A stretch of DNA of 32,198 nucleotides from Streptomyces sp. NRRL S-31 (GTDB taxonomy: Bacteria > Actinomycetota > Actinomycetes > Streptomycetales > Streptomycetaceae): positions 1 to 32,198 of the forward strand of contig NZ_JOCB01000097.1 of assembly GCF_000718775.1 (NCBI RefSeq), written 5' to 3'. The notes below the pieces were generated by a model. The model had not been told where the DNA came from and did no database searches. It saw only the letters and a list, made by a program, of their open reading frames with translations. Shown piece after piece: positions 8,988 through 15,020 of this stretch (positions are counted from its first letter, which is position 1; each line of letters begins with the position of its first letter). A program made the position numbers and the translations under genes.

Positions 8988-9707
8988 GTGAGGCTCACCC
9001 CCACCGAACGTGACCGGCTGCTGCTCTTCGGAGCCGCCGAGCTGGCCCGGGCCCGCCGGGCGCGCGGTCTGAGGCTGAACGTGCCGGAGGCCACCGCGCT
9101 GATCGCGGACACCGTCTGCGAGGCGGCCCGGGACGGCAGGCGGCTCGCCGAGGCCATCGAGGCGGCCCGGTCGGTGCTCGGCCCCGAGGACGTGCTGCCG
9201 GGCGTCGCCGACATCGTCACCGAGGTGATGGTCGAGGCCGTCTTCGACGACGGCTCCCGGCTCGCGGTCGTCTCCGACCCGATCGGCTGGGCCTCCCCCG
9301 AAGCAGGGGGAGGCATGGGGGAGGAGGCCCCCGGCGCGCTGCTGCCCGGCCCCGAGCACGCCGACCCGGAACCGGTCCTCCGGCTCCGCGTCACCAACAC
9401 CGCGACCGTGCCGGTCTCCGTCACCTCCCACTTCCACTTCTTCGAGGCCAACCCGCGCCTCGACTTCGACCGCCGCGCCGCCTACGGCATGCGGCTCGCC
9501 GTGCCCGCCGGCTCCTCGGTCCGCTTCGGGCCGGGGCAGAGCGAGGAGGTCGGGCTGGTCCCGATCGGCGGCGAGCGGATCGCGATCGGCTTCGCCGGAC
9601 TCGTGGACGGGCCGCTGGACGCCCCGGGCGCCCGGGAAGAGGCCCTGCGCACAGCCGCGGCCTGCGGTTATCTCGGAGCGACGCCGGACGGAGGCGAGGA
9701 GCGATGA
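8988..9707 (+). CDS. Urease gamma/beta fusion subunit (UreAB-like)
   Basis: The 239-residue protein joins the urease gamma subunit (about residues 1-100, LTPTERDRLLLFGAAELARA, then DVLPGVADIVTEVMVEAVFDDG) to the beta subunit (about 125-230, VTNTATVPVSVTSHFHFFEA, FDRRAAYGMRLAVPAGSSVRFGPGQ). These subunits scaffold the nickel-bearing alpha subunit. The GTG at 8988 is preceded by AAGGAGG with 10-nt spacing. The linker carries an in-frame palindromic element (9291-9314) encoding SPEAGGG, which looks like an insertion. The stop overlaps the next start in ATGA, so the two are translated together. No urease accessory gene is in the window, so nickel loading would need genes elsewhere. Confidence 0.9.
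   Translation: MRLTPTERDRLLLFGAAELARARRARGLRLNVPEATALIADTVCEAARDGRRLAEAIEAARSVLGPEDVLPGVADIVTEVMVEAVFDDGSRLAVVSDPIGWASPEAGGGMGEEAPGALLPGPEHADPEPVLRLRVTNTATVPVSVTSHFHFFEANPRLDFDRRAAYGMRLAVPAGSSVRFGPGQSEEVGLVPIGGERIAIGFAGLVDGPLDAPGAREEALRTAAACGYLGATPDGGEER
9291..9314. repeat. REP-like palindrome inside the urease gamma/beta linker
   Basis: GCCTCCCCC and GGGGGAGGC pair perfectly around a 6-nt loop, followed by ATGGGGGAGGAGGCCCCC-type sequence. Streptomycete genomes carry many short elements of this kind (clustered C and G runs in inverted order), normally between genes. Here it is translated in frame within the subunit linker. Confidence 0.55.
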
Positions 9708-11428
9708 GCCGTTCCAAGGGCCGGGAGGTCAGCCGGTCGATCCACGTCGAACCGCACGCCTACACGGCCACCCACGGCCCCCGCGCCGGCGACCGGCTCC
9801 GGCTCGGCGACTCCGGGCTGACGATCCGCGTCGAGTCCGACGCCCAGAAGTACGGCGACGAGTTCCTGGCCGGCTTCGGCAAGACCGCCCGCGACGGACT
9901 GCACCTGAAGGCCGCCGCCGTCCGCGACACCTGTGACGTCGTGATCAGCAACGTCGTCGTCATCGACGCGGTGCAGGGCATCCGCAAGGTGTCCATCGGC
10001 ATCCGCGAGGGGCGCATCGCGGCGATCGGGCGGGCGGGCAACCCGGACACCCTGGACGGGGTGGACGTGGTCGTCGGGACGGGCACGTCGATCGTCTCCG
10101 GCGAGGGTCTGATCGCCACCGCCGGTGCCGTCGACACCCACGTCCACCTGCTCTCGCCGCGCATCATGGAGGCATCCCTCGCCTCCGGCGTGACCACGAT
10201 CATCGGGCAGGAGTTCGGCCCGGTGTGGGGCGTCGGCGTCAACTCCCCCTGGGCGCTGCGGCACGCCTTCGGCGCCTTCGACGCCTGGCCGGTCAACATC
10301 GGCTTCCTGGGCCGGGGTTCGTCCTCGCACCCGGCACCGCTGATCGAGGCCCTGGCCGAGGGCGGGGCGAGCGGTTTCAAGGTGCACGAGGACATGGGCG
10401 CCCACACCCGCGCGCTGGACACCGCCCTGCGCGTCGCCGAGGAGCACGACGTCCAGGTGGCCCTGCACAGCGACGGCCTGAACGAGTGCCTGTCGGTCGA
10501 GGACACCCTGCGCGTCCTCGAAGGCCGCACGATCCACGCCTTCCACATCGAGGGCTGCGGCGGCGGGCACGTGCCCAACGTGCTGAAGATGGCCGGTGTC
10601 CCGAACGTCATCGGCTCCTCCACCAACCCCACCCTGCCCTTCGGCCGGGACGCGGTCGCCGAGCACTACGGCATGATCGTCTCCGTCCACGACCTCAAGC
10701 CCGACCTGCCCGGTGACGCGGCCATGGCCCGCGACCGCATCCGGGCCGGCACCATGGGCGCCGAGGACGTGCTGCACGACCTCGGCGCGATCGGCATCAC
10801 CTCTTCCGACGCCCAGGGCATGGGCCGGGCCGGTGAGACGGTCCGCCGTACGTTCGCCATGGCGGGCAAGATGAAGGCCGAGCTGGGGCCGCTGGACGGC
10901 GACGGGGACGGGGACGACAACGCCCGAGTCCTGCGCTACATGGCCAAGCTGACCATCAACCCGGCCATCGCGCACGGCCTCTCCCACGAGGTCGGCTCGA
11001 TCGAGACGGGCAAGCTCGCCGACATCGTGCTGTGGCGGCCCGAGTACTTCGGCGCCAAGCCGCAGCTGGTCCTCAAGTCCGGCTTCCCGGCGTACGGCGT
11101 GGTCGGCGACCCCAACGCGGCCACCGACACCTGCGAACCCCTCGTCCTGGGACCGCAGTTCGGCTCCTACGGCGCCACGGCCGCCGACCTCTCCGTCGCG
11201 TTCGTCGCCCGGGCCGCCGTCGAGGCGGGCAACGACACGATGCCCACCCGCAGGCGCCGGGTCGCGGTGCGCGGCACCCGGGGCATCGGCCCGGCCGACC
11301 TGCGGCTGAACGCGCGGCTCGGCGCGGTCGACGTGGACCGGCGCACCGGTCTGGTCACCCTCGACGGCGAGCCGCTCAGCTCCGAGCCCGCCGACTCCGT
11401 CTCCCTCAACCGCCTCTACTTCCTCTGA
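9704..11428 (+). CDS. Urease alpha-like nickel amidohydrolase, atypical substrate pocket
   Basis: The 574-residue protein is homologous to UreC along its length. Nickel ligands are all present: His146 and His148 (THVHLL), carbamylated Lys226 (GFKVHED), His255 (ALHSD), His281 (AFHIEGCGGGH) and Asp369 (TSSDAQ); the catalytic flap His329 is kept. It differs from classical ureases at the pocket. The GGGTGPAAGTHATT loop is replaced by a shorter GQEFGPVWGVG (168-178). The flap CHHLDP reads VHDLKP, losing the flap cysteine, and the alanine of SQAMG is glycine (Gly372). A hydrolase is certain; urea as substrate is doubtful. It overlaps the gamma/beta gene by 4 bases and is followed 56 bases later by agmatine deiminase. 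Confidence 0.85.
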   Translation: MSRSKGREVSRSIHVEPHAYTATHGPRAGDRLRLGDSGLTIRVESDAQKYGDEFLAGFGKTARDGLHLKAAAVRDTCDVVISNVVVIDAVQGIRKVSIGIREGRIAAIGRAGNPDTLDGVDVVVGTGTSIVSGEGLIATAGAVDTHVHLLSPRIMEASLASGVTTIIGQEFGPVWGVGVNSPWALRHAFGAFDAWPVNIGFLGRGSSSHPAPLIEALAEGGASGFKVHEDMGAHTRALDTALRVAEEHDVQVALHSDGLNECLSVEDTLRVLEGRTIHAFHIEGCGGGHVPNVLKMAGVPNVIGSSTNPTLPFGRDAVAEHYGMIVSVHDLKPDLPGDAAMARDRIRAGTMGAEDVLHDLGAIGITSSDAQGMGRAGETVRRTFAMAGKMKAELGPLDGDGDGDDNARVLRYMAKLTINPAIAHGLSHEVGSIETGKLADIVLWRPEYFGAKPQLVLKSGFPAYGVVGDPNAATDTCEPLVLGPQFGSYGATAADLSVAFVARAAVEAGNDTMPTRRRRVAVRGTRGIGPADLRLNARLGAVDVDRRTGLVTLDGEPLSSEPADSVSLNRLYFL

Positions 11429-11484
11429 CGACCCTGCCCGACCACCTCCTCCGACGACCCTCCTCAGACGACCAGGGAACGCAC

Positions 11485-12528
11485 ATGACCACCCCCGCCG
11501 CCGATGGCTTCCGGATGCCCGCCGAGTGGACCCCGCACGAGCGCACCTGGATGGCGTGGCCCGGTCCCAACCCCACCTTCGACGACCCCGAGGACCTCCG
11601 CCTCTCCCGCACGGCCTGGGCGTCCGTGGCCCGCGCCGTCCGCCGCTTCGAACCGGTGACGGTCGTCTGCGGACCCGGGCAGTCGGCCGAGGCGCGGGCG
11701 CTGCTCGGCCCCGGCGTCGACACGGTCGAACGGGACCTGGACGACGCCTGGATGCGGGACATCGGCCCGACCTTCCTGACCGACGGCGAGGGCTCACTCG
11801 CCGCCGTCGACTGGACGTTCAACGGCTGGGGCGCCCAGCACTGGGCCCGCTGGGAGCACGACGCGAAGATCGGCGCGTTCGTCGCCGACCTCGCGGGCGC
11901 GAAGACGTACGCCTCGAAGCTGGTCAACGAGGGCGGCGCGATCCACGTCGACGGCGAGGGCACCGTCCTGCTCACCGAGACCGTGCAGCTCGGCCCCGAG
12001 CGCAACCCGCACTGGTCGAAGGAGGAGGTCGAGGCGGAGATCCACGCCCACCTCGGCACCGAGAAGGCGATCTGGCTGCCGCGCGGCCTGACCGGGGACT
12101 ACCCTCCCCACGGCTTCGGCACCCTCGGCCACGTCGACATCGTGGCCGCCTTCGCCCGCCCCGGTGTCGTGGTCGCGCACCACCAGCCGGACCCGGCCCA
12201 CCCCGACCACGAGGTCACCAAGGAGGTCATCGGCCTGCTGAAGTCGGCGACCGACGCCCGGGGCCGCGCGCTCCAGGTCGTGGAGGTGCCCGCCCCGACC
12301 GTCCTGGAGGCCGACGGCCACTGGGCCGACTACTCCTACATCAACCACTACCTCTGCAACGGCGGGGTCGTGCTGTGCGGCTTCGACGATCCGCGTGACG
12401 AGACCGCCGCCGGCATCTTCCGCCGCCTCTTCCCCGAGCGGACGGTGACCCTGGTGGACGCCCGGACGGTCTTCGCGGGCGGCGGCGGCATCCACTGCAT
12501 CACGCAGCAGCAGCCGAAGACCCGCTGA
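11485..12528 (+). CDS. aguA: Agmatine deiminase
   Basis: AguA, of the guanidino-group modifying enzyme fold, converts agmatine to N-carbamoylputrescine and ammonia in the cytosol. The 347-residue protein has MPAEWTPHERTWMAWP at the start, DDAWMRDIGPTF (substrate-binding acids), GTLGHVDIVAAFARPG (catalytic His and Asp) and the nucleophile Cys338 in GGGGIHCITQQQP. ATG 11485 is the natural start with a weak AGGGAA upstream; the frame is open further upstream only inside ureC. It follows the urease-like alpha gene closely, on the same strand. The usual next enzyme, N-carbamoylputrescine amidohydrolase (AguB), is not in the window. Confidence 0.95.
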   Translation: MTTPAADGFRMPAEWTPHERTWMAWPGPNPTFDDPEDLRLSRTAWASVARAVRRFEPVTVVCGPGQSAEARALLGPGVDTVERDLDDAWMRDIGPTFLTDGEGSLAAVDWTFNGWGAQHWARWEHDAKIGAFVADLAGAKTYASKLVNEGGAIHVDGEGTVLLTETVQLGPERNPHWSKEEVEAEIHAHLGTEKAIWLPRGLTGDYPPHGFGTLGHVDIVAAFARPGVVVAHHQPDPAHPDHEVTKEVIGLLKSATDARGRALQVVEVPAPTVLEADGHWADYSYINHYLCNGGVVLCGFDDPRDETAAGIFRRLFPERTVTLVDARTVFAGGGGIHCITQQQPKTR

Positions 12529-12555: not shown

Positions 12556-13044
12556 GTGGATGTACTGCTCTGCGCCGCGTGCGGCCACCGGCTCACCGCA
12601 CCGGTCCGGCGCCTCGACGAGATCCCCGGGTCCGGCGGACGGGACGGGCTGCCCGGCCCCGGTGAGGCGTGCCGGCCCCCGGCCCTGCTGCCGCGCGGCC
12701 GCTACGCCGTGGACCCGCTGCCGCACGGGGCGCCGTTCGTGCCCGCGCCGAGGGACCGGGAGTACGACGGCGTGGTGCCCGGCGGCCCGTGGCGGTCCGA
12801 CGCGCGCGGGCTCCTCGTCTCCGCCGGGCCGCGCGGCACCTACGTCCTGCACCCGCTGGACGTCGTCGCACTGGACCCGCACCCCGACGTGACGCGGCAC
12901 ATCGGCTGCTGCGGCCCGGACGGGGAGCACGGCGTCAACCGGCTCTGCCGGTGCGGCGCCGAGGTGGCGATCGCGGCCGACGACTGCACCACCGAGTACG
13001 CGACCCGCCTCGTCCCCGGCGCGGTACGGGCGGTGCCGGCATGA
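12556..13044 (+). CDS. Cysteine-rich, zinc-ribbon-like protein of unknown function
   Basis: I do not recognise this 162-residue protein. It starts with a CxxC pair (LCAACGH, residues 6-11) and has further cysteines near the C-terminus (GCCGPDGEHG, LCRCGAE, DDC), suggesting one or two metal sites; no membrane segment or signal is seen. The start GTG at 12556 has no ribosome site, but TAGAAC at 12544-12549 would begin transcription at it, so a leaderless mRNA is plausible. It follows agmatine deiminase by 27 bases, and its stop overlaps the TetR start (ATGA). The close coupling hints at a role linked to the regulator. Confidence 0.75.
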   Translation: MDVLLCAACGHRLTAPVRRLDEIPGSGGRDGLPGPGEACRPPALLPRGRYAVDPLPHGAPFVPAPRDREYDGVVPGGPWRSDARGLLVSAGPRGTYVLHPLDVVALDPHPDVTRHIGCCGPDGEHGVNRLCRCGAEVAIAADDCTTEYATRLVPGAVRAVPA

Positions 13045-13691
13045 CCGGGGCCCCGGCGCCCCGCCGCCGCACCCCCGCCCCGCCCCGCGAGGAGGTCCTC
13101 GCCGCCGCCATGGGCATGATCGCCGAGCGCGGGCTGGAGAAGCTGACCATGGCGGGGCTGGGCCGCGAGGTCCAGATGAGCAGCGGCCACCTGCTGTACT
13201 ACTTCCGCTCCAAGGACGAGCTGCTGCTGCGGACCCTGGAGTGGAGCGAGGGCCGGCTCGGGGCGGAGCGGGGACGGCTGCTCACCGGCCCCGGCACCGC
13301 CCGCGAGCGGCTGTCCGCCTACGTCGACCTGTACGTCCCCGACGGCCACCGCGACCCGCACTGGACGCTCTGGCTGGAGGTCTGGAACCGCTCGCAGAAC
13401 GCCGACGAGGCCGCGCGCGAGCGCCAGGCGGCGATCGAGGGGGCCTGGCACCGCGACCTGGTCGCGCTGGTCGCCGAGGGCGTCTCGCGGGGCGAGTTCC
13501 GCGCGGTGGACGCGGACCGCTTCGCGGCCCGGCTGCGTGCGCTGCTCGACGGGTTCTCCATCCACGTCGCCATCGGGCTGCGCGGCACCGATCGCGGGCA
13601 AGTGCTCCGCCACGTCCGGGAGTTCATCGCGGACACGCTGCTGGCCGACGAGTCGGGCGAAGGAGTCGTCCCCGGTGCCGCCGGGCAGTAA
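13041..13691 (+). CDS. TetR-family transcriptional regulator
   Basis: The 216-residue protein has the N-terminal TetR helix-turn-helix (about residues 18-68: EEVLAAAMGMIAERGLEKLT, then QMSSGHLLYYFRSKDELLL). The ligand-binding C-terminal domain resembles the BetI-type group (DPHWTLWLEVWNRSQ, then ARLRALLDGFSIH). The start overlaps the preceding stop in ATGA, and the transporter gene begins 6 bases after its stop, so regulator and transporter share a message. The obvious candidate target is its own operon. The ligand is unknown; an agmatine or polyamine-related compound would fit the neighbours but is inference. Confidence 0.9.
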   Translation: MTGAPAPRRRTPAPPREEVLAAAMGMIAERGLEKLTMAGLGREVQMSSGHLLYYFRSKDELLLRTLEWSEGRLGAERGRLLTGPGTARERLSAYVDLYVPDGHRDPHWTLWLEVWNRSQNADEAARERQAAIEGAWHRDLVALVAEGVSRGEFRAVDADRFAARLRALLDGFSIHVAIGLRGTDRGQVLRHVREFIADTLLADESGEGVVPGAAGQ

Positions 13692-13697
13692 CGGCCC

Positions 13698-15020
13698 ATG
13701 GGACGACAACACTGGAAGAAGATCTGGGTCGGCTCGGCGGGGAACATGGTCGAGTGGTTCGACTGGTTCGTGTACGCGAGCTTCGCCCCCTATTTCGCCG
13801 GCACGTTCTTCCCGAGCGGCAACCCCACCGCCCAGCTGATGAACACCGCCGGCATCTTCGCCGTGGGCTTCTTCATGCGGCCGGTGGGCGGCTGGCTGCT
13901 GGGCCGGGTCGGTGACCGCAAGGGCCGCAAGGCGGCGCTCACCCTGACCGTGACGCTCATGTCGGCGTCGGCGGTGCTCATCGCCGTCGCCCCCACCTAC
14001 GCGGTCGCCGGCTACGGCGGCGCGCTCGTCCTGCTCGTCGCCCGCCTGCTCCAGGGCCTGTCGGTGGGCGGCGAGTACGCGGCCAGCGCCACCTATCTGA
14101 CGGAGGCCACGGACCCGGCCCGGCGGGGCTTCGCCTCCAGCTTCCAGTACGTCTCCATGACCGCCGGGCAGATCGCCGGCCTCGGCCTGCTGATCATCCT
14201 GCAACGGACCCTGTCCGACGACGCGCTGCACGGCTACGGCTGGCGCATCCCGTTCGTCGTCGGCGCGCTCGGCGCGGCGGTCGTCTTCTACCTGCGTCGC
14301 AGCATGCTGGAGACCGAGGTGTACGCGGAGGACACCTCCCACACGGCGGAGCGCGGCACCCTCGGCGCCCTGTGGCGGCACAAGCGGGAGGCGTTCCTGG
14401 TCGTCGCCCTCACCATGGGCGGCACGGTGGCCTACTACACCTACACCACCTACCTGACGAAGTACCTCTCCAACTCGGCCGGCCTGTCCAAGCAGACGGC
14501 CACGCTGGTCTCCTTCACCGCGCTGATCGTCTTCGCCTGCCTCCAGCCACTCGCGGGCGCCCTCTCCGACCGGATCGGCCGCCGTCCGCTGCTCATCACC
14601 TTCGCCGTCGGCTCCACCGTCCTCACCGTGCCGGTCATGACCCTGCTCAGGCACGCGGACGGCTACTGGCCCGCCCTCGGCCTCGCCCTGCTGGCGCTGG
14701 TCGTGGTCACCGGCTACACCTCCATCAACGCCTGTGTGAAGGCCGAGCTGTTCCCGACCGGTGTCCGCGCGCTCGGCGTGGCCCTGCCGTACGCCGTCGC
14801 CAACGCCCTCTTCGGCGGCACCGCCGAGTACGTCGCCCTGTGGTTCAAGAAGGGCGGTATCGAGTCCGGTTTCTACTGGTACGTGGCCGCCTGTGCCGCC
14901 GTCTCCCTGGTGGTGTACGTCTCCATGCGCGAGACGAAGGACCTGGACCTGACCCGGATGCGGCCCGCCGGGGCGGCCGGGGACCGGTCCGGGGCGGCCG
15001 ACCGGGCGCCCGCATCCTGA
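13698..15020 (+). CDS. MFS metabolite:H+ symporter (MHS family)
   Basis: The 440-residue membrane protein has about twelve hydrophobic segments. The N-terminal GNMVEWFDWFVYASFAPYFA and the loop GDRKGRKAALT between helices 2 and 3 mark the metabolite:H+ symporter family, which includes permeases for alpha-ketoglutarate, proline/betaine, shikimate and citrate. RLLQGLSVGGEYAAS is the expected helix-4 motif. The substrate cannot be read from the sequence. No ribosome site is evident, so translation probably depends on the TetR gene ending 6 bases upstream. Given the operon, an organic acid or amine linked to agmatine use is possible. Confidence 0.88.
   Translation: MGRQHWKKIWVGSAGNMVEWFDWFVYASFAPYFAGTFFPSGNPTAQLMNTAGIFAVGFFMRPVGGWLLGRVGDRKGRKAALTLTVTLMSASAVLIAVAPTYAVAGYGGALVLLVARLLQGLSVGGEYAASATYLTEATDPARRGFASSFQYVSMTAGQIAGLGLLIILQRTLSDDALHGYGWRIPFVVGALGAAVVFYLRRSMLETEVYAEDTSHTAERGTLGALWRHKREAFLVVALTMGGTVAYYTYTTYLTKYLSNSAGLSKQTATLVSFTALIVFACLQPLAGALSDRIGRRPLLITFAVGSTVLTVPVMTLLRHADGYWPALGLALLALVVVTGYTSINACVKAELFPTGVRALGVALPYAVANALFGGTAEYVALWFKKGGIESGFYWYVAACAAVSLVVYVSMRETKDLDLTRMRPAGAAGDRSGAADRAPAS

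Follow-up and report, generated by a model that had tools for sequence, protein, structure and literature searches.

To our knowledge urease, the classic nickel enzyme of textbooks, has one known physiological substrate. The hydrolysis of N-carbamoylputrescine is known from other proteins. The canonical one, AguB, is a member of the nitrilase superfamily with a fold unrelated to that of the urease alpha subunit UreC; it has no metal and uses cysteine chemistry. A second, AguY, is described in the parts of Li et al. (2025, PMC12283126) that we draw on. It is a single polypeptide of about 570-590 amino acids (aa) from the amidase family, it also replaces AguB, it goes with the same type of agmatine deiminase (AguA) in Actinomycetota that concerns us here, and it is biochemically proven: N-carbamoylputrescine is turned into putrescine by the proteins of Shewanella oneidensis and Microterricola gilva, and the M. 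gilva protein has a Km for it of 0.07 mM. This work is about a pair of urease-like genes, ureAB and ureC, that may encode a third such enzyme. They lie in the window, by which we mean the whole analysed stretch of 32,198 nucleotides from Streptomyces sp. NRRL S-31 (contig C97 of a genome of 8.74 Mb in 322 contigs), in a cluster flanked by ilvE and cimA that runs ureAB, ureC, an aguA-like gene, a small gene, a BetI-type TetR gene and an MHS-type (metabolite/H+ symporter) transporter gene. An earlier note on this DNA had read UreAB-UreC as a re-purposed ureidohydrolase completing an agmatine-to-putrescine pathway. A partner swap across 296 genomes of the same class strongly supports this reading on comparative grounds, and we put the probability that UreAB-UreC is an N-carbamoylputrescine amidohydrolase derived from the urease family at roughly 0.7, judging from sequence comparison.

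The gene pair has been seen before under another description. We take the window locus to be SCO5525-5526 of Streptomyces coelicolor, going by gene order. A lone ure(AB)C cluster without accessory genes was noted in S. coelicolor and S. avermitilis in 2008 (PMC2492869), SCO5525-5526 was counted among the urea-utilising genes in a study of ArgR (PMC3293853), and a study of cave Streptomyces treats ure(AB)C as one type of urease (PMC5489568). These genes, a fused ureAB plus ureC, are probably the same as those of the window. The portions of PMC2492869 and PMC5489568 that we rely on describe them as a urease with no link to agmatine, whereas we predict otherwise for the window pair. A literature match for SCO5526-SCO5524 (PMC4991794) concerns nrdABS, is unrelated to ure(AB)C and was set aside. 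The word urease does not occur in the AguY paper (PMC12283126), and among the best-listed open literature, which leaves subscription papers and preprints outside, we found no earlier report joining a urease-family protein to N-carbamoylputrescine. UreAB-UreC is thus ordinary by name and would be unusual by function; the idea put forward in the earlier note has good support and lends itself to direct testing.

The evidence that carries our reading is what accompanies AguA in other genomes. Atypical UreC was called at 52% or more identity to the window UreC and at least 612 bits (next lower match 563 bits), and window-type AguA at no less than 319 bits (next lower 276). By these thresholds 44 of the 296 genomes carry atypical UreC, the other UreC matches listed being 46-50% identical to the window UreC, and 68 carry window-type AguA. 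AguA neighbourhoods fetched in genomes without atypical UreC hold two recurrent neighbours, a nitrilase and an amidase of family NF005127. The nitrilase counted as AguB-like from 283 bits upward (next match 153); the amidase, called above its curated cut-off, gave 14 matches in 13 genomes. The 68 AguA genomes then divide into 35 with atypical UreC, 19 with AguB-like nitrilase and 13 with the amidase. None has two and one has none, which leaves exactly one of three unrelated partners in 67 of 68; the exception, G253, has a fragmented AguA. UreC set against the other two partners gives counts of 0, 35, 32 and 1, with a Fisher p of about 1e-18 that is a guide only because the genomes are related. 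This is the survey that the earlier note had proposed, of the UreC subtype with aguA and a missing aguB, and no UreC genome among the AguA carriers holds either other partner. UreC stands where an N-carbamoylputrescine amidohydrolase (EC 3.5.1.53) is expected, beside the deiminase and without overlap, and by this position UreAB-UreC fills the slot of two hydrolases of N-carbamoylputrescine, one of them proven. Because UreC alternates with AguB-like nitrilase and AguY beside AguA, we read UreAB-UreC as a third, unrelated enzyme for the same predicted reaction.

Among the genomes surveyed the amidase occurs only where AguA does, and in all 13 the distance between AguA and one amidase copy is 15-60 bases; a second copy in G274 is not beside AguA. 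P0184, an amidase of M. gilva with 585 aa where the paper gives AguY 584, is 86% identical to the amidase of Agromyces subbeticus (L198), which adjoins a window-type AguA 56% identical to that of the window. By this identity the swap-partner amidase is AguY, the proven N-carbamoylputrescine amidohydrolase. The distance from AguA to the nitrilase match is 0-516 bases in 16 of 19 genomes; the two are on different contigs in G160 and G203, where AguA is near a contig end, and apart in G035. Among solved structures the nitrilase is closest to a plant N-carbamoylputrescine amidohydrolase (5h8i), and it is these AguB-like homologues that take the same slot beside AguA. Canonical AguB, which the earlier note had found missing, is absent from the whole window genome: the best of six nitrilase-superfamily genes reaches 254.7 bits where the cut-off is 410.25. 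We tried the TIGR03380 (AguA) and TIGR03381 (AguB) cut-offs as sorters of substrate and dropped them. The AguB cut-off is passed by none of the 296 genomes and by 2 of 14 control genomes, while two AguY-linked AguAs fail that of AguA. A putrescine oxidase (PDB 3rha match, 774 bits) is encoded in one AguA-AguY cluster (L199), with relatives in a second (L193, 65%) and in an AguA-nitrilase cluster (L207, 53%).

Several observations weigh against our reading and we gather them here. The AguB-like and AguY families were chosen as AguA neighbours, and this choice accounts in part for the coverage of 67 of 68; it does not account for the lack of partner overlap. The genomes share ancestry, and an AguA tree made by a quick method needs as few as four partner changes, four being a minimum; its well supported branches alone force two changes for each partner. 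That tree has 60 chosen rows: 28 with UreC, 16 of the 19 AguB-like, 13 AguY and 3 canonical as outgroup. The UreC rows are 12 of the window's genus, the window included, and 16 others; 4 come from contigs outside the 296-genome sample, and in 7 of the 28 UreC sits elsewhere in the genome. The genome searches scored the best 4-8 first-look candidates per genome, and a few members may be missed. AguB-like nitrilase occurs without window-type AguA in 7 genomes. In 7 of the 35 genomes with both UreC and window-type AguA (G020, G037, G052, G156, G233, G241, G265) the two are not neighbours. Nine UreC carriers have no window-type AguA (six have an amidohydrolase-3 gene, two a canonical AguA nearby, and G276 nothing recognised), so the substrate could differ there. 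The Pot-type binding proteins found near some of the clusters are far under the PotD cut-off (e.g. 123 vs 582). The window genome has two agmatinase homologues, both above the TIGR01230 cut-off, so agmatine also has a one-step route to putrescine, and the UreAB-UreC route would be an additional rather than the sole one. Finally, the window AguA scores 313.5 bits on TIGR03380, below the agmatine-deiminase cut-off of 381.8; it has Gly at the position where, in the part of PMC6447857 that we use, Asp220 of plant agmatine iminohydrolase holds the amine of agmatine; and the second loop acid of many AguA relatives (RDYDE or RDYDD) is missing from it.

The partner also differs within the families that we coded. 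UreC and amidase both occur in family f15, amidase and nitrilase in f3 and f31, and UreC in f1, where G035 has nitrilase instead. That genome holds an aguA-tetR-cimA locus (L089), no atypical UreC that we could find and an AguB-like gene alone elsewhere (L221); possibly the partner was replaced recently in this genus, or else the assembly has a gap. We did not keep G035 as an AguA-bearing genome without UreC, since its AguA ends at a contig edge where loss and an assembly gap are indistinguishable, and it is counted as AguB-like.

The features of AguA bear on the alternative that survives best, although we consider it unlikely. This type of AguA and UreC could act on another guanidino/ureido pair, with homoagmatine, arcaine or a guanidino acid as examples, and UreC would then be an omega-ureido hydrolase with another substrate. 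The window AguA (11485-12528, forward strand, 347 aa) belongs to the PAD_porph family (PF04371, 364.6 bits) and keeps the catalytic Cys, His and Asp. Its Gly replaces the amine-contacting acid of the plant enzyme, and a nearby Asn/Asp of that enzyme is Leu. The window transporter matches models of metabolite/H+ symporters such as the tricarballylate carrier, and in some carriers UreC goes with an amidohydrolase-3 protein and not with AguA. However, Gly is present at the plant-220 position in all 15 AguY- or AguB-like-linked AguAs printed, and the TIGR03380 scores of three AguY- or nitrilase-linked AguAs are low as well (271, 271 and 259 bits), two AguY-linked ones failing the cut-off at 270.6 and 270.9. 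Since AguY-linked AguAs have both the Gly and the low score, neither trait separates the window AguA from them. AguA genes with the same Gly adjoin AguY, which is proven on N-carbamoylputrescine in M. gilva, and genes for putrescine oxidase and Pot-type transporters occur in the swap clusters. A guanidino acid had been considered as substrate from the lost Asp220 equivalent together with the MHS-type transporter; that candidate is weakened because AguY-linked AguAs share the loss.

All 22 carriers of the window's genus, out of 31 sampled genomes, have UreC and AguA separated by 8-123 bases. Outside the genus AguA is within 800 bases in four f15 genomes, where it neighbours ureABC, and in two f29 genomes, where it is upstream of ureAB. 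Agmatine deiminases at equivalog level occur near atypical ureABC in L045 (518 bits, 0.5 kb) and L046 (552 bits, 2.1 kb). Altogether an AguA of some kind or an amidohydrolase-3 gene is found within 5 kb of UreC in 41 of 44 carriers; of the remaining three, G276, G233 and G241, the last two have window-type AguA elsewhere. Three or more PotABCD-like genes stand beside atypical ureABC in ten loci (L040, L041, L044, L048, L054, L114, L119, L127, L150, L170), those of L040 matching Pot models best. Kribbella catacumbae (L170) and a metagenome-assembled genome (L150) have Pot-like genes, an AguA relative and ureABC together. In other carriers, several of them with PotABCD-like transporter genes, the amidohydrolase-3 gene takes the place of AguA. 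It is also the partner common to the nitrilase and to atypical ureABC in six carriers without AguA, and the protein may be an alternative first enzyme.

Some further loci deserve mention beside these. L222-L226 (G267, G275, G140, G003, G223) represent five of the seven genomes that have AguB-like nitrilase and no window-type AguA, and in all five the nitrilase adjoins an amidohydrolase-3 gene 36-40% like that of L040. At its second locus, L065, genome G125 has another copy of atypical ureABC together with a divergent AguA (43-44%); two more AguA-like genes are nearby, one with an apparent twin-arginine signal.

The active site tells us what kind of protein has entered the slot beside AguA. UreC (9704-11428, forward strand, 574 aa) belongs to the atypical subfamily, and its predicted role as N-carbamoylputrescine amidohydrolase is based on the urease alignment and the swap pattern. 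It overlaps by 4 bases with ureAB (8988-9707, forward strand), whose 239 aa translation is a fused gamma/beta-type subunit (Pfam Urease_gamma 122 bits, Urease_beta 108.5 bits; NCBIfam PRK13192 322.5 bits, cut-off 243). The urease gamma, beta and alpha domains (PF00547, PF00699, PF00449) each score above cut-off in the window proteins, and only urease and amidohydrolase models match UreC, which does not have the nitrilase-superfamily fold of the AguB family. Alignment with solved ureases, as the earlier note had advised, gives a near end-to-end match, from residue 18 through the C-terminal end, in which the urea-contacting segments are altered. The structures matched include chain 3qga, "Urease subunit beta 2", and a Yersinia enterocolitica-type urease, chain 4z42. 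Classical ureases for comparison include those of this type, of Sporosarcina pasteurii and of Klebsiella aerogenes. With classical nickel urease (UreABC) the pair has in common the subunits, the end-to-end match, six metal ligands, the flap histidine and Arg345.

We compared 117 distinct subfamily sequences drawn from the fetched loci. The ligands His146 and His148 (10139-10147), Lys226 (10379-10381), His255, His281 and Asp369, as well as flap His329, are present in the window UreC as had been claimed, and they are invariant in all 117 together with His228 and Arg345; Lys226 is the counterpart of the carbamylated bridging lysine. These features and those that follow are all on the forward strand. 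The segments around them have been rebuilt, and we take these to be the urea-contacting and pocket-lining ones. The loop at residues 168-178 (10205-10237) reads GQEFGPVWGVG, as opposed to GGGTGPAEGSKATT in the classical urease of the same genome (L079) and GGGTGPAEGTKATT in L059; the subfamily loop is four residues shorter than in classical urease. The flap is VHDLKP (10685-10702) and the third segment DAQGMG (10808-10825), which carries the ligand Asp369, versus CHHLNP and DSQAMG in L079. The letters of classical urease given in the earlier note were slightly off, and the contrast that it drew with the window UreC stands. The urease motifs of the loop and pocket (GGGxGP.., HTDTLNE, EGAGGGH, DSQAMG) are not matched by atypical UreC, which has Gly for Thr, Met, Thr or Leu for Trp, Cys for Ala, Ala for Ser and Gly for Ala. 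Differences from classical urease that are invariant in the subfamily are Gln169, Trp175, Gly176-Val177-Gly178, Ala370 and Gly372. Nearly so are Glu170 (Glu in 116, Asp in 1), Gly258 (115 of 117), Cys285 (116 of 117) and Gln371 (111 of 117). Flap position 328 may be V, C, A, S or T, and the remaining flap positions apart from His329 are variable.

Outside the window's genus the subfamily is scattered through other Actinomycetota, and contigs named Acidimicrobiaceae hold further atypical clusters. Two other kinds of relative were seen. L057 and L058 (G267, G043) have a urease with fused ureAB beside UreD and UreG, an intermediate loop GGGLGPVT and the segment SQGMG, and perhaps lie near the branch from which the atypical subfamily arose. 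L104 (8042-9730, in G254 of the window's genus) holds a UreC of a third type, which shares 46-47% identity with the window UreC and has the loop GMGIGGVW; after it come genes for an amidohydrolase-3 protein (31%) and for a transporter 32% like that of the window. G254 has no UreD or UreG match, and this UreC may be another accessory-free urease relative.

Could UreAB-UreC be simply an ordinary second urease, served by the UreDEFG of the classical cluster, that stands beside aguA by chance or through shared ammonia release? We find this improbable, more so than another substrate. Every metal ligand is kept, close relatives of the window UreC are named urease subunit alpha, ure(AB)C has been counted as a Streptomyces urease type in the part of PMC5489568 consulted, and the window genome has UreD and UreG. 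On this last point the earlier note needs amending: ureDEFG are indeed absent from the window, while contig C69 of the same genome carries a classical ureC together with UreG and UreD. Against a second urease, the urea-contacting segments are changed in a largely fixed way, and all four members scored miss the TIGR01792 urease-alpha equivalog cut-off of 680 (window 643.9, L043 622, L056 522.3 and L170 556.3 bits), which classical L079 (886.9) and the accessory-bearing relative L057 (817.8) pass. There is also the zero overlap with AguB-like nitrilase or AguY in the 35 AguA-bearing carriers. A search for UreD and UreG in 56 genomes, 44 of them the atypical UreC carriers, found neither above cut-off in 17 of the 44 (G076, G048, G020, G037, G052, G023, G234, G281 and nine f29 genomes), UreE and UreF not having been searched for. 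G265, which has a fragment of ureG at the edge of a contig, was for that reason excluded from this count. Fifteen of the 17 have a single UreC match overall, and G076 and G156 have further weaker matches. The UreD and UreG expected in every host of a urease do not accompany atypical UreC in all of its hosts.

The pattern in these 17 carriers suggests that the atypical site is metallated without UreD and UreG, and hence perhaps with a metal other than nickel. The iron urease UreA2B2 of Helicobacter mustelae is a precedent for a urease-family enzyme with a non-nickel metal; it hydrolyses urea, whereas atypical UreAB-UreC is predicted to act on N-carbamoylputrescine. That the complex serves some other task altogether, its association with AguA being indirect, seems very improbable: the 17.5 kb fetched around UreC in G276 contain neither AguA nor amidohydrolase-3, and the G276 genome lacks window-type AguA, but 41 of 44 carriers have one or the other within 5 kb and the full catalytic site is conserved.

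If UreAB-UreC is an N-carbamoylputrescine amidohydrolase, the pathway would run as follows. AguA would convert agmatine to N-carbamoylputrescine and ammonia. UreAB-UreC would then hydrolyse the ureido group at a two-metal site bridged by carbamylated Lys226, yielding putrescine, CO2 and ammonia. Metal-bound hydroxide would attack the ureido carbon, and flap His329 would act as the acid, as the equivalent histidine does in urease. The shortened loop and the changes from Thr to Gly, Trp to Met/Thr/Leu and Ala to Gly would make room for the aminobutyl chain, and Glu170 is a candidate for holding the terminal ammonium of the substrate, given its conservation and the geometry of urease. A broader version of this scheme would have the whole subfamily leave urea behind as a UreDEFG-independent, possibly nickel-free, third unrelated hydrolase beside AguB and AguY, in which Glu170 recognises the polyamine end of the substrate, with amidohydrolase-3 supplying that substrate where AguA is missing, so that both steps are interchangeable modules. 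We regard that version as an even bet.

The rest of the cluster is less constant. The same gene order is found in named contigs that are mostly Streptomyces, which also hold the closest UreC proteins among the matches listed. A small gene between aguA and tetR (12556-13044) matches nothing in family searches and is present in only some Streptomyces clusters. The BetI-type TetR gene (13041-13691, forward strand; PF13977, 84.8 bits) possibly encodes a regulator of the cluster. TetR genes adjoin ureABC in L073, L075, L076 and L077 and AguA-AguY in L195, L198, L202 and L203, with 26-37% identity, and the regulator of aguBA in Pseudomonas aeruginosa, in the portion of PMC4287709 used here, is of the TetR family and responds to agmatine. 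The MHS-type transporter of the major facilitator superfamily (13698-15020, forward strand; PRK10406, 458 bits, below the cut-off of 550) is a possible importer of the substrate, and only some Streptomyces clusters have one, e.g. L060, L070, L135 and L138. Both genes may belong to the cluster, which would extend it beyond the limits first proposed.

If our reading is true, urease can change its substrate and its needs for metal loading. The natural hosts without UreD and UreG make the question of accessory proteins testable. One polyamine step would have a third unrelated hydrolase, and the name urease subunit alpha carried by many Streptomyces proteins would be corrected, also in work where ure(AB)C is counted towards ureolytic capacity.

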